From Nocardioides sp. Root122 (lineage in GTDB: Bacteria; Actinomycetota; Actinomycetes; Propionibacteriales; Nocardioidaceae), in contig NZ_LMDE01000001.1 in the NCBI RefSeq assembly GCF_001425025.1, forward strand, positions 416,751 through 480,750: 64,000 bases of DNA. Direction: 5' to 3'. The position numbers were made by a program, and so were the translations under genes. Of the stretch, positions 54,359 through 59,463 are shown in pieces; position 1 is the first letter of the stretch, and each line of letters opens with the position of its first letter. The notes under the pieces are model-generated. The model did no database searches, was not told the origin of the DNA, and saw only the letters and a list, made by a program, of their open reading frames with translations.

Positions 54359-54428
54359 CGGGCCATTGTGGCGGGAGACACCGCAGGGCCCCGATCGGGA
54401 CGCGATCGGGGCCCTGCGGCGTGTGTGG

Positions 54429-54502
54429 TGGCCAGGGGCGGGGTCGAACCGCCGACCTACCGATTTTCAGTCGGTCGCTCGTACCAACTGAGCTACCTGG
54501 CC
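54429..54502 (-). tRNA. tRNA-Phe (GAA)
   Basis: A 74-base cloverleaf on the minus strand: acceptor GGCCAGG paired with CCTGGCC plus discriminator A, D-arm GCTC...GAGC, anticodon loop CTGAAAA with anticodon GAA between ACCGA and TCGGT, T-arm GGCGG-TTCGACC-CCGCC. No CCA is encoded. Confidence 0.96.
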
Positions 54503-54552: not shown

Positions 54553-55887
54553 TCACACGCCGTACGGCGCCTTCGCTGGCAGCTCGAGCCAGAAGGACGA
54601 GCCCACGCCGACCGTCGAGGTGCCCTGCACCGCGCCGCCGTCGCGCTCGGCGATCGTGCGCGAGATCGAGAGGCCGAGGCCGCTGCCCTTGGTCGCCGAG
54701 CCGGCGAAGCGCACGAAGGGCTCGAAGACCCGCTCGACCTGGTCCGGGGTGAGGCCCGGTCCGTCGTCGCGGACGATGATGCGCACCATCTCCTGGCCGC
54801 TCTCGCCGAGCAGCGACTCCGCCGACAGGTGCACCGACCCGCCGGCGGACCGGTGGTAGGCGATCGCGTTGCCGACGAGGTTGGTGAGCACCTGGCGTAC
54901 GGCGGAAGGGTGCGCCCAGACCGTGAGCGCCGGGTCGACGTCGACCCGGATCCGCACACTGGCGTTGAGCGCCGGGACGCGGTGCCAGTGGACGACGTCG
55001 GCGATGGCGTCGGCGACCACGACGTCCTGGCGCTTGTCGTCGTTGGAGAAGGCGCGCCCGGCGCCCAGCAGGCTGTCGACGACGGAGACCAGCTGCTCGC
55101 AGGCGCGCAGGATCACGGGGCCGTCCTTGAGGAGCCCGGCGGACACCGGCTCCTGCGGGTTGTCGGCGGCGTCGTCCATCAGCACCTCGGTGTAGCCCAT
55201 GATCGCCGCCAGCGGTGTGCGCAGCTCGTGGCCCACGGCGGCGAAGAAGTGCTGGTTGGCCAGCTGGGCCTCGTTGCCGGCCTCGATGGCCTCGACCAGC
55301 GCGCGCCGGGAGTGCTCGAGCTGGAGGCGGGAGGAGATCGCCGCGTTGAGGAGGTGCAGGTCGTCGATCAGCGCGGCGGGCCACGCACCCGGGCTCGTGC
55401 TGCCGACGGACAGGCTCCCGAACATGGTGCCCGCGGACGAGTAGATGGTCGCGATCAGGCTGCGGACGCCGACGCCGGCGAGCTCCCTGCGGTCCTGCTC
55501 GGCCTCCGGTGGCAGCAGGTCGGTGTCGAGCAGGACGACCAGGTCGTCGCGGCGGGCGAACTGCGATAGCCACGGCATGCTCAGCGCTGCCTCGGGCCCG
55601 GCGCCGGGGTCGGGGAGGATCGAGGACGGTGACCCCGGCCGTACCCACTCCCGGACCCAGGCGCGGCCGCCCAGCATCATCCAGACCGAGGGGTCCACGG
55701 GTGTGAAGCCGACCAGTGACGTCGCCACGGCGTCGACGCGCGGGTAGGTCAGCAGGTGGGTGGCCGCCAGCTCGATGGCCTCGTCCAGCGCAATCTCGCT
55801 GGCGAGGACGGCGGCGGTGAGGATGGCGACGGCAGGGGAGACCTCGCCCTGCGCGGTGGCGTCCTGGAGGGCGGGGTGGTCGCTCAC
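54553..55887 (-). CDS. Soluble GAF-type sensor histidine kinase
   Basis: A 444-residue kinase without membrane segments. Residues about 30-200 look like a GAF-type sensory domain. The H-box FFAAVGHELRTPLAAIMGY has its His near residue 219. The ATPase domain has N-box LVGNAIAYH (about 336), G1 DDGPGLTP (about 376) and G2 KGSGLGLSIS (about 404). GTG start overlaps the P450 stop by 4 bases (GTGA). The neighbouring receiver protein encoded 1.3 kb upstream on the same strand is the likely partner. The kinase could sense a cytoplasmic signal linked to the peptide product. Confidence 0.88.
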   Translation of the reverse strand: MSDHPALQDATAQGEVSPAVAILTAAVLASEIALDEAIELAATHLLTYPRVDAVATSLVGFTPVDPSVWMMLGGRAWVREWVRPGSPSSILPDPGAGPEAALSMPWLSQFARRDDLVVLLDTDLLPPEAEQDRRELAGVGVRSLIATIYSSAGTMFGSLSVGSTSPGAWPAALIDDLHLLNAAISSRLQLEHSRRALVEAIEAGNEAQLANQHFFAAVGHELRTPLAAIMGYTEVLMDDAADNPQEPVSAGLLKDGPVILRACEQLVSVVDSLLGAGRAFSNDDKRQDVVVADAIADVVHWHRVPALNASVRIRVDVDPALTVWAHPSAVRQVLTNLVGNAIAYHRSAGGSVHLSAESLLGESGQEMVRIIVRDDGPGLTPDQVERVFEPFVRFAGSATKGSGLGLSISRTIAERDGGAVQGTSTVGVGSSFWLELPAKAPYGV

Positions 55888-56993
55888 CGTGCCCCACCTC
55901 CTGCCGCCTCGGTCGTGAACCTGCACGGTAGCGGTGCGAGCCCCCGGGTCTGGTCGATTTCGACGTCCGCGGCCAACCGCACCCCGTGTGCGAGGGCCCA
56001 CTCCGCCAGCTCGACGAGGACGGCGAGCCCGAGCGTACGTCCGGGGCAGGAGTGCGGCCCCGCGCCGAACGGCAGCCACGCCCCGGGACGCCGGGTCTCG
56101 TCGCCCCACCGTCCGGGGTCGAAGTCCGCGAGGCCGTCCGGTTCGCCGGGCACGAGCTCGGGGAGGCGACCCAGCAGCAGTGGACTGACGAGGACGACCG
56201 CACCGGCCGACAGGTGCTGACCGGCGAGGTCCACCTCGGTGGTGGTGAGGCGGGCGGTGATCCAGGTCGGTGGCGTCACCCGCAGCGACTCCCAGACGGC
56301 GTGGAGCGCCTCGACGTCCGGCGACGGCTCACGACCGAGCCAGGCGAGGAGCCACGACCCGGCCGCGATGGGCACCTGGATCCCGGCGGCGAGCATGGTC
56401 GCCGCCTGCTGGGGCGTGCCGGGGAGGTCCTCGATCGGCGCGAGGGTGTCCTCGAGCCGGAGGCGGGCGTCCCGCTCGCCGCGGCGGGTGCGGCTCCAGC
56501 GCCGCGGCGCCCTGGCCGCCGAGATCACGGGTGCGAGCGCGTCGATCCACGCCAGCACACCCTCGGCCACGGCCTCGCGCTGTGCGGGGCTCGCCCCGGG
56601 GAGGAGCGCGTCGCAGGTGGAGCGGGCCACCGGCCGTCGCAGCAGCACCATCGCGTCGTACGCCTCGCCGGGCCTCGCGCGGTCGTGCGCAGCGATCGCC
56701 TCGGGCCAGAGCTCGGCGAACGTGGCCACGCCGCGGGCCACCTGGGCCGGCGTCAGGGGCGCGAAGGTGAGATGACCCGAACGGGTCTCCCCGCGGCTGG
56801 CCGAGAGGTCGCCGCTGCGGCTCACGTCGCTGGGGAAGTCGAAGTGGTCGACGTCGGTGAGGACCTGCCTGGCCTGTGCCGGCGTGGTGGTGAGCCACGG
56901 GCCGTGCGGGCCCAGGGCGACGATCCCGGACCGAGGGGCCGCGAGGACAGCGCCGAGCCGACCGCCGGCCGACTCGGCGCTGCCCACGTGCAT
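55884..56993 (-). CDS. Cytochrome P450, candidate RiPP cross-linking enzyme
   Basis: A 369-residue P450 with the heme motif FGAGPHSCPG (Cys about 316) and ExxR in ESLRV (about 234). The I-helix region reads AAGIQVP (about 198-204) in place of A-G-x-D/E-T-T, so the acid-alcohol pair used for normal oxygen activation is missing. ATG 56993 (or GTG 56996) has AAGGGTG upstream and lies 35 bases after the stop of a 31-codon gene; GTG 57056 would overlap that gene and gives a low-complexity N-terminus. It probably oxidatively links aromatic side chains of that peptide. Redox partners are not encoded nearby. Confidence 0.88.
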   Translation of the reverse strand: MHVGSAESAGGRLGAVLAAPRSGIVALGPHGPWLTTTPAQARQVLTDVDHFDFPSDVSRSGDLSASRGETRSGHLTFAPLTPAQVARGVATFAELWPEAIAAHDRARPGEAYDAMVLLRRPVARSTCDALLPGASPAQREAVAEGVLAWIDALAPVISAARAPRRWSRTRRGERDARLRLEDTLAPIEDLPGTPQQAATMLAAGIQVPIAAGSWLLAWLGREPSPDVEALHAVWESLRVTPPTWITARLTTTEVDLAGQHLSAGAVVLVSPLLLGRLPELVPGEPDGLADFDPGRWGDETRRPGAWLPFGAGPHSCPGRTLGLAVLVELAEWALAHGVRLAADVEIDQTRGLAPLPCRFTTEAAGGGAR

Positions 56994-57028
56994 CACTGGT
57001 GGTGCGTCACCCTTCGGGTGCCGTGCGC

Positions 57029-57124
57029 TCAGCGGCCGCCGGGGGCGGGGCGCCACATGTACATCGCCTGCAGCTGGTTGGCGGAACGCTTGGACTCGAT
57101 GTGGGTGCGGATGCGCTTCATCAT
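57029..57124 (-). CDS. Candidate RiPP precursor peptide (31 aa)
   Basis: A short gene with GGAGAACACC before tandem ATG codons. The peptide has a basic leader-like part (MMKRIRTH, then IESKRSANQ), a segment AMYMWR at residues 20-25 with Tyr22 and Trp24 in Y-x-W spacing, and a tail PAPGGR. It is followed at once by a P450 gene. This is the layout of P450-modified RiPPs: tryptorubin has a short aromatic core (AWYIWY), and biarylitide enzymes join Tyr to His or Trp two residues away. Tyr and Trp are its only aromatic residues apart from one His in the leader. The peptide is too short for most gene finders. Function is inferred; expression and modification are not shown. Confidence 0.72.
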   Translation of the reverse strand: MMKRIRTHIESKRSANQLQAMYMWRPAPGGR

Positions 57125-57149
57125 GGTGTTCTCCAGGGTTGGGGTTGGC

Positions 57150-57219: not shown

Positions 57220-57612
57220 TCAGGACCCCACGTCGCGCAGTGTCTCCTCGATCAAATCAGTCAATTGCTGAATACGCAGCGGCTTCTGCATCACAGTTTC
57301 GACTCCGAGCTCCTGGAGGACCGCTCGGTGCTCGCCCGCCCAGGCGCTGATCACGACCACCTTGGTGGCCGGAGCGACGTCGGCGTGCTCCCGCATCCAC
57401 CGCACCACGTCGACGCCGTTCATGCGCGGCATGGTGAGGTCGAGGAGCATCACGTCGAAGGAATCGCGCTGGAGGATCTCCACGGCGTCCTGGCCGTCGA
57501 CCGCCGTCGAGGCGACGTGACCGGCCCTCTCGACGAGGCGACAGAAGACGTCCCTGATGTCCTCGTTGTCATCGACGACGAGGAAGCGCAACTGCCGAGA
57601 CGCGGTGCCCAC
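57220..57612 (-). CDS. Single-domain response regulator (CheY-like)
   Basis: A 130-residue stand-alone receiver: acidic pair in LVVDDNEDIRDVF, phosphorylated Asp in MLLDLTMPRMNG (about 55), Thr/Ser in VVVISAWAG and Lys in MQKPLR. There is no output domain, so it must act by protein contact or phosphotransfer. GTG 57612 follows a TAGCCT -10 by 6 bases. It is first in the minus-strand run receiver, peptide, P450, histidine kinase. Confidence 0.92.
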   Translation of the reverse strand: MGTASRQLRFLVVDDNEDIRDVFCRLVERAGHVASTAVDGQDAVEILQRDSFDVMLLDLTMPRMNGVDVVRWMREHADVAPATKVVVISAWAGEHRAVLQELGVETVMQKPLRIQQLTDLIEETLRDVGS

Positions 57613-57767: not shown

Positions 57768-57840
57768 GCCCCCATCGTCTAGCGGCCCAGGACCCCGCCC
57801 TTTCACGGCGGTAGCGCCGGTTCGAATCCGGTTGGGGGTG
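57768..57840 (+). tRNA. tRNA-Glu (TTC)
   Basis: A 73-base cloverleaf: acceptor GCCCCCA/TGGGGGT with a G-T first pair, D-arm GTC...GGAC, anticodon stem CCGCC/GGCGG around CTTTCAC with anticodon TTC, T-arm CCGG-TTCGAAT-CCGG, discriminator G. CCA is not encoded. A TATGCT -10 lies about 40 bases upstream. Confidence 0.95.
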
Positions 57841-57922
57841 CGACCGGGCCCGTGGTTCCCGCCGATTTGGTGGACTGCGACGGGCATGGGTTACAGTTCC
57901 ACCCGCTTCACAACAAGCACCT

Positions 57923-57999
57923 GGCCCCGTAGCGCAGTTGGTTAGCGCGCCGCCCTGTCACGGCGGAGGCCGCGGGTTCGAGTCCCGTCGGGGTCGCCA
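57923..57999 (+). tRNA. tRNA-Asp (GTC)
   Basis: A 77-base tRNA including encoded CCA: acceptor GGCCCCG/CGGGGTC with discriminator G, D-arm GCGC...GCGC, anticodon stem CCGCC/GGCGG around CTGTCAC with anticodon GTC, T-arm GCGGG-TTCGAGT-CCCGT. A strong hairpin terminator follows. Confidence 0.96.
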
Positions 58000-58482: not shown

Positions 58483-59415
58483 TCACCCGACCTGGCTGGT
58501 GGAGTGCGTCCCGCCCTGGCGCCCCGCCCAGGGCGTGGCCTCGGCGCCGTCGAGCTGGTGCACCAGCTCGCGAAGCAGCCAGTTCTGGAGGTCGCGCTGG
58601 CCCGGGGTGCGGGCCATCGAGAGCAGCCGCTCGGCACGGCAGAACGCGTCCGCCACGTCGAACATCTCGGTCATCGTCACGAAGATCGGGGCGGCCTCGC
58701 GGACCATGGTGAAGGACAGGTCGGCACGCGGGCGGCCCTCCTGCTCGGCGGTGCGGATCTGGGTGCGATAGGTCTCGGGGAACTGGCGCTCGAAGCTGGC
58801 GAACATCGCCGTCAGGTCGCCGGCCAGGGGGTAGTCGGACTGGTGGGAGAGGGACAGCAGGCGCAGCTCGCGCCGCAGCTCGTTGTACTGCCGGTGCAGC
58901 GAGGTGTAGAGGGGGACGTCGATGCCGAGGAGGCGGATGTCCACCGCGGCGTCGCTGGTGGGCTCGGAGCCCTCCTGGGAGTGGTGGTCGATGACCCACT
59001 CCGCGGCGCCGTCGTCGCGCATGTGCGGTGCCGGCTCGAACCAGACGATCTTGCCGTCGTTCTCGATCGTGGCGCCCCAGGCGATGGCGCACTGCGCCAC
59101 CATCGCGAGCCCGCGGCCGAAGGTGAGCAGCAGGTCGAGGTCGTCGTCACCGGGCATCCGCACGGGCGGCACCGGGGGGCTGGTGGAGCCGTCGGCCACC
59201 TCGATCCGGGGATGGCTCGCGGTGCCGCGGACCCGCACCTTGAAGGGCGCGTTGGCGTGGATGATCGCGTTGGCCACGAGCTCCGAGACGCCCAGCTCGG
59301 CACACTCCACGAGGTCGGTGCGCTCGAGCCGGTGGCAGATGTCGCCCACCCATCGCCGGGCGTCGGCCGCGGCGCGCGGCGACGGCGCCAGGGTCAGCTC
59401 GGAGGTCAGCGGCAC
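58483..59415 (-). CDS. Anti-sigma/RsbW-like ATP-binding protein with helical C-terminal domain
   Basis: A 310-residue protein. The N-terminal 130 residues are an HATPase_c_2 (RsbW/SpoIIAB-like) domain with N-box ELGVSELVANAIIHA and a G-box region MLP-less LTFGRGLAMVAQCA. The C-terminal 170 residues are helical and unrecognised. GTG 59415 is chosen since it has GAAAAGAG upstream; ATG 59454 is an alternative but places the start inside a hairpin. It may bind a sigma factor or anti-anti-sigma partner not encoded here. Confidence 0.8.
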   Translation of the reverse strand: MPLTSELTLAPSPRAAADARRWVGDICHRLERTDLVECAELGVSELVANAIIHANAPFKVRVRGTASHPRIEVADGSTSPPVPPVRMPGDDDLDLLLTFGRGLAMVAQCAIAWGATIENDGKIVWFEPAPHMRDDGAAEWVIDHHSQEGSEPTSDAAVDIRLLGIDVPLYTSLHRQYNELRRELRLLSLSHQSDYPLAGDLTAMFASFERQFPETYRTQIRTAEQEGRPRADLSFTMVREAAPIFVTMTEMFDVADAFCRAERLLSMARTPGQRDLQNWLLRELVHQLDGAEATPWAGRQGGTHSTSQVG

Positions 59416-59436
59416 TGGGACTCTTTTCGGGGGCGT

Positions 59437-59463
59437 GGGTAGTCCAGCGGGCATTCACTACCC
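59437..59463. repeat. Short palindrome GGGTAGT/ACTACCC
   Basis: GGGTAGT (59437-59443) and ACTACCC (59457-59463) with a 13-base loop, just upstream of the anti-sigma-like gene. The arms resemble those at 29024-29090 and 7374-7421. Confidence 0.6.

Follow-up and report, generated by a model that had tools for sequence, protein, structure and literature searches.

Four adjacent minus-strand genes in the 64-kb window (the whole stretch of Nocardioides sp. Root122 DNA that was analysed) encode, in this order, a receiver-only response regulator, a 31-residue peptide, a cytochrome P450 and a histidine kinase with a GAF-type domain. The explanation that we consider fairly probable is that the peptide and the P450 yield a RiPP with a P450-made Tyr-x-Trp cross-link, and that the dedicated two-component pair encoded on either side reads this product.

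In the proposed mechanism, the P450 would recognise the 31-residue precursor, probably via its basic N-terminal leader, and would oxidatively couple Tyr22 and Trp24 (-2 Da) to give a small cyclophane, which a protease of the host would probably trim. Either this product or the act of forming it would be coupled to the soluble GAF histidine kinase and the receiver-only response regulator. The GAF domain would most likely bind the cross-linked peptide as its ligand, either within the cell or after re-import, with phosphoryl flow via the receiver setting some cell state.

These parts carry different weights. It is very likely that the P450 acts on the peptide. A Tyr22-Trp24 cross-link made by the P450 is likely, and is inferred from P450-RiPP chemistry without a mass spectrum or structure. 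A signalling role for the product is at best slightly favoured over its absence. It is inferred from gene architecture only, that is, from an output-less receiver and a cytosolic GAF kinase that are inseparable from the peptide and P450 genes and come without an exporter or protease gene. That a P450-made cyclophane is an intracellular signal or cofactor for the GAF kinase/receiver pair, in a cassette carried at several chromosomal sites, is put forward only tentatively, with less than even confidence.

The two-component pair, the four-gene unit and its site

The response regulator (57220..57612, minus strand; 130 aa) matches Pfam Response_reg with an E-value of 9.7e-23 and has no output domain. 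Being receiver-only, it cannot itself be a transcription factor. The histidine kinase (54553..55887, minus strand; 444 aa) has HisKA and HATPase_c domains and no clear membrane span, and is predicted to be soluble. Its N-terminus is assigned as a GAF-type domain: 20 of 40 homologues have a Pfam GAF match there, and the AlphaFold model (pLDDT 89.4) is confident over this domain. The HELRTP, N and G boxes are invariant or nearly so. The criteria for a two-component system are met, with a phospho-acceptor His and an ATPase in the kinase and a receiver domain in the regulator.

The sequence-only reading had treated these genes as mere flanks of the peptide and the P450. They proved to be invariable parts of a four-gene cassette. 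The sample comprised 58 Nocardioides loci with the P450, each from its own genome, namely the source and 57 homologues from a family-wide search. A kinase homologue adjoins the P450 at 58/58 loci (L090, described below, included), and a response regulator homologue lies 5' of the peptide gene at 57 of them, the exception being a contig end. The GTG start of the kinase overlaps the P450 stop by 4 nt, an overlap that is usual among the 58 loci. Kinase homologues at E<1e-50 were found in cassette genomes only, bar one contig-end fragment (G742), and the protein distances of the four genes correlate with r between 0.79 and 0.91, as expected of a unit inherited together. As far as sequence comparison can establish it, response regulator, peptide, P450 and kinase are thereby shown to be one evolutionary unit. 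Beyond these four, the cassette holds no protease, exporter, ferredoxin, immunity or other RiPP gene. A promoter and terminator scan of the locus found nothing, which is uninformative at 73% GC.

Some individual loci deserve mention. At L039 (G070:C2:864884-867655) the histidine kinase gene is duplicated in tandem 3' of the P450. At L090 (G734) the kinase 3' of the P450 looks frame-broken or fragmentary, and the assembly is 61% complete. Lone GAF kinase paralogues L145 (G687:C1) and L146 (G087:C1) have no P450, response regulator homologue or Y-x-W peptide nearby, and the genomes of both also hold a full cassette.

The borders of the cassette were located with ARAGORN and by empty-site comparison. 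A tRNA-Phe gene (54426..54502, minus strand) forms the left border and a tRNA-Glu gene (57768..57841, plus strand) the right one, with tRNA-Asp (57923-57999, ARAGORN) next. The gap of 3265 bases between tRNA-Phe and tRNA-Glu is filled by the four cassette genes alone. The same tRNA borders, or the sole border left on the contig, were found at the seven other main-clade loci scanned (L027, L028, L031, L035, L038, L042 and, at a contig end, L041). In 11 cassette-free Nocardioides (L162, L163, L165-L172, L174) the same tRNA-Phe and tRNA-Glu/Asp are present, with Phe and Glu only 100-255 bases apart. The distant cassettes L043-L046 have different neighbours, with tRNA-Arg(TCT) nearby, and the cassettes L047-L048 have no tRNA within the stretch examined. 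Given a tRNA gap that is filled in some genomes and empty in others, and the other sites used in distant clades, the unit of gain and loss is the block from response regulator to kinase, and the tRNA-Phe/tRNA-Glu gap is interpreted as an insertion site. No integrase was seen next to the cassette.

One genome, G013 (L173), carries the cassette elsewhere, and its tRNA-Phe/tRNA-Glu gap holds other sequence of about 1.2 kb. Further along the window, the minus-strand gene at 58483-59454 encodes a protein with an RsbW-like HATPase_c_2 domain. Since its homologues occur near the cassette only in the tRNA-Phe-site clade, this gene is regarded as lying outside the cassette.

The linkage of the four genes does not by itself settle what the kinase senses. 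The peptide-kinase link is undemonstrated, and gene linkage can mean co-regulation only. The two-component genes might thus only regulate an ordinary cross-linked RiPP with an extracellular action, as an antibiotic or plant-active compound, a reading that departs from our explanation in its signalling half only. Regulators are common in biosynthetic clusters, and biarylitide-related peptides may affect plants (PMC13417212). Yet a receiver-only regulator without a DNA-binding domain and a cassette without an exporter or immunity gene count against this reading, and the 4-nt overlap of kinase and P450 genes with their strict co-occurrence is tighter than usual for cluster-situated regulators. 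We hold mere regulation of such a product to be rather unlikely, and prefer a peptide read by the pair.

The precursor gene and its conservation in Nocardioides

The 31-codon ORF between the response regulator and P450 genes is almost certainly a real, precursor-like gene. It occupies 57029..57124 of the minus strand (31 codons plus stop, MMKRIRTHIESKRSANQLQAMYMWRPAPGGR), from an ATG at 57124 to a stop that ends at 57029, and is laid out as a basic leader of about residues 1-20, a Y22-x-W24 core and an R-P-rich follower. The bases directly 5' of the ORF are CCCTGGAGAACACC, and a GGAG ribosome binding site (57131..57134, minus strand) lies six bases 5' of the ATG. From the peptide stop to the P450 ATG at 56993 there are 35 bases. 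The frame, the binding site, the spacing of Tyr22 and Trp24 and the 35-base gap had been proposed from the source sequence alone, and all were confirmed, the last with the proviso that an in-frame GTG at 56996 is also a possible P450 start.

As a chance control, the 116 ATG-initiated ORFs of 22-40 codons in the 64-kb window, and in this window only, were searched for Y.W within the last 14 residues. The single ORF that has it is the peptide ORF (counted twice, with two ATGs). At the homologous loci, an ORF of 24-31 residues with Y-x-W behind a basic leader lies just 5' of the P450 in 58/58 cases, ending 5-52 nt before the aligned P450 start, and is preceded by a Shine-Dalgarno-like core in 57. 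When all short ORFs upstream were listed unfiltered for the first 24 loci, the same ORF type was present at each. The uniqueness of the motif in the window and the retention of the ORF at every locus argue against a chance ORF.

The motif extends to Y-x-W-R in 56 of the 58 peptides and to Y-x-W-R-P in 50. Its middle residue may be M, A, S, L, G, T, V, F or P, and the residue preceding the Tyr is freely variable. In an ungapped comparison of 25 in-register ORFs, nucleotide identity was 0.75 within the peptide ORF against 0.34-0.36 in the flanks. In the same ORFs, frame 0 had the best amino acid conservation of the frames and never a stop. Synonymous changes occur at the conserved codons Arg25, Pro26 and Pro28. 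The pattern of these substitutions shows protein-level selection on the peptide gene. The sequence-only reading had named two outcomes that would refute it, the lack of a conserved short frame upstream of the P450 homologues and the lack of coding constraint. Both are excluded by the conservation of the peptide across loci, and the conserved frame, aromatic motif and ribosome binding site that would support it were found.

The P450 of the cassette is single-copy in the source genome, and all 57 homologues, 43-73% identical to it, fall within Nocardioides. A contig search returned a single relative, N. baculatus. Outside Nocardioides, no homologue was found in the phylum (396 genomes from 237 genera, E<1e-40), in the order (36 other sampled genera, E<1e-30) or in the family (25 other genera, E<1e-20), and a plasmid search gave distant P450s only. 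The cassette is therefore genus-restricted among the genomes searched. At one locus (L018/L041, G021) the precursor gene is present in three tandem near-identical copies with one P450 behind them.

The cytochrome P450 and its inferred reaction

The P450 (55884..56996, minus strand; 369-370 aa) starts at ATG 56993 or at the GTG directly before it. Since GTG 56996 is common to relatives without the ATG, the protein may start one codon earlier. The Pfam p450 match (residues 232-322) covers only the C-terminal half, and the AlphaFold model, made with 55 homologues, has a complete P450 fold with a mean pLDDT of 87.5. The heme motif is FGAGPHSCPG, with Cys316 and the heme loop conserved, and ExxR is present as WESLR. 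ExxR, the Cys and much of the core are invariant among homologues. Judged by its sequence, the P450 is intact.

The I-helix reads AAGIQVP, within a family pattern of L-A-A-G-x-Q-V-P in which Q206 is invariant and V207 is found in 54/55 members. In a profile alignment, the same position of a solved P450 has G-x-E-T, and ordinary P450s have A-G-x-E/D-T. The missing acid/alcohol pair is compatible with radical coupling instead of oxygen insertion, and is no proof of it. The AGxQV helix could instead signal altered catalysis or a non-catalytic P450.

Searches for closer kin of the P450 gave no specific candidate. The best fold match is CYP175A1 (Z 29.3, rmsd 3.2 over 333 residues); many P450s are tied at Z 29-28, and no cross-linking P450 stands out. 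The best NCBIfam match is the ApyO model NF050147, to which the source P450 scores 78.6 bits against a cut-off of 525, with a best E-value of 3.4e-25 among the 55 family members. Many ordinary P450s score higher, in 96/396 actinobacterial genomes and in control genomes. Given that unrelated, ordinary P450s match this model better, the similarity to ApyO is not specific, and kinship was rejected. A second P450 gene of the source genome lies about 10 kb off, just outside the window (G000:C1:483303-484301).

Precedents for the proposed reaction are available. Cross-links in YxY, WxY and YLW are made by P450s from RiPP pathways; for ApyO the motif is YLY, with WLY and YLW joined in variants (PMC13192836). 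The biarylitide P450s P450Blt and BytO accept Tyr-Trp (PMC12951456, PMC13417212), and a link from Tyr C6 to Trp N1' is known among cyptides (PMC12299652). A P450 for a YPW motif, MpoB, is cited in PMC13383641. The coupling step proposed here is inferred from the precedents of ApyO and P450Blt.

The P450 might alter the peptide otherwise, by hydroxylation, nitration or intramolecular oxidation of Tyr or Trp. RufO nitrates Tyr in a biarylitide-type peptide (PMC13417212), and a recognition motif would likewise be expected to keep its Y and W strictly. However, the invariance of both aromatics in all 58 peptides at i and i+2 is the usual cross-link spacing, and the tRNA borders enclose no gene for a nitric oxide synthase or another partner. 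We regard another modification as quite improbable.

Alternatively, the P450 could serve the two-component system as a heme sensor without catalysis, with the peptide as a small regulatory subunit and no RiPP precursor at all. An I-helix without the usual pair would suit this role, as would the constant company of P450, kinase and regulator in the absence of maturation genes. The invariance of ExxR, Cys and much of the core speaks for an enzyme instead, and a conserved Y-x-W-R-P with variable length and leader looks more like an enzyme substrate than like a binding helix. The three tandem peptide genes at one locus likewise count against a regulatory subunit, and we think a heme sensor improbable to a still greater degree. 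An attenuation leader peptide, or an untranslated ORF, is hardly credible: the ORF is short, lies directly 5' of a gene and has Tyr and Trp codons, yet its amino acids are conserved over the whole length with synonymous changes at the three codons named, a good ribosome binding site precedes it at 57/58 loci, and no terminator-like hairpin was found in the region by the scan, uninformative as that is at this GC content. A Tyr-x-Trp cross-link by the P450 remains the preferred reading.

Relation to known P450-RiPP families and significance

The sequence-only reading had inferred a RiPP of the same kind as atropopeptides, cittilin and biarylitides. A precursor gene beside a P450 is supported, whereas membership in the atropopeptides or the biarylitides fails by published criteria and the cross-link is still an inference. 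Three features define the atropopeptides (PMC11450843): the P450 of the class, a leader motif of the KSLK type, and a core whose second residue is Trp. Like tryptorubin and scabrirubin, the Nocardioides system has a precursor and a P450 as its minimal core and a long leader, but it lacks the KSLK-type motif and the xWxxxx core and has a follower after the aromatic pair. None of KSLK, RSLK, ESLK, KSRK, KPLK and PSLK occurs in the 58 peptides, in which the single Trp comes after the Tyr and is followed by 4-7 non-aromatic residues.

In comparison with the biarylitides (BytA/BytO, P450Blt, myxarylin), a short peptide gene beside one P450 and an aromatic-x-aromatic core are shared. Biarylitide precursors are five (5-8) residues long, and their aromatics stand at positions 3 and 5 (PMC13417212), whereas the 58 Nocardioides peptides have 24-31 residues and do not meet this criterion. 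They further differ in a long leader, a follower of 4-7 residues, a core that is always YxW and the linked regulator and kinase.

The P450 of aminopyruvatide (ApyA/ApyO) also acts on an aromatic-x-aromatic motif near the C-terminus, with YLW among ApyA homologues, and its need for a basic residue of the substrate was listed as a shared feature (PMC13192836). In contrast, the Nocardioides precursor is half the size and has no C-terminal Asp, ending in PAPGGR at the source locus, and the four cassette genes between the tRNA borders include no MNIO or other maturation gene. The P450 criterion, the NF050147 cut-off, is unmet as well.

The cyptides (rubrin, lapparbin, roseovertin and MpoB with YPW) are an umbrella for P450 aryl-cross-linked RiPPs. 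Their broad criterion, a short precursor gene with a conserved aromatic motif and an adjacent P450 gene, is met at 58/58 loci. By the published criteria checked, the predicted cassette is thus outside the atropopeptides, biarylitides and aminopyruvatides, and only the loose umbrella of P450-cross-linked RiPPs accommodates it. The literature searched gave no account of the cassette, this Nocardioides P450 clade or a dedicated two-component pair, although a mention in the 2023 cyptide survey, the MpoB paper or the biarylitide review is not excluded.

P450-cross-linked RiPPs are now turning up by the hundred. In standard screens, most of them are inactive or nearly so (PMC13417212). With the Nocardioides cassette come a P450 clade whose I-helix is unusual and another precursor type, one that finders keyed to 5-8 residue or KSLK precursors are expected to miss. 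Its constant partnership with a two-component pair hints at a purpose of such peptides, and, with a sensor kinase and a receiver bound gene by gene to the product throughout the genus, this purpose is open to a simple genetic and biochemical test. If the proposed role is true, the peptide would be, to our knowledge, the first P450-cross-linked RiPP that comes with its own receptor and has a defined function in signalling.
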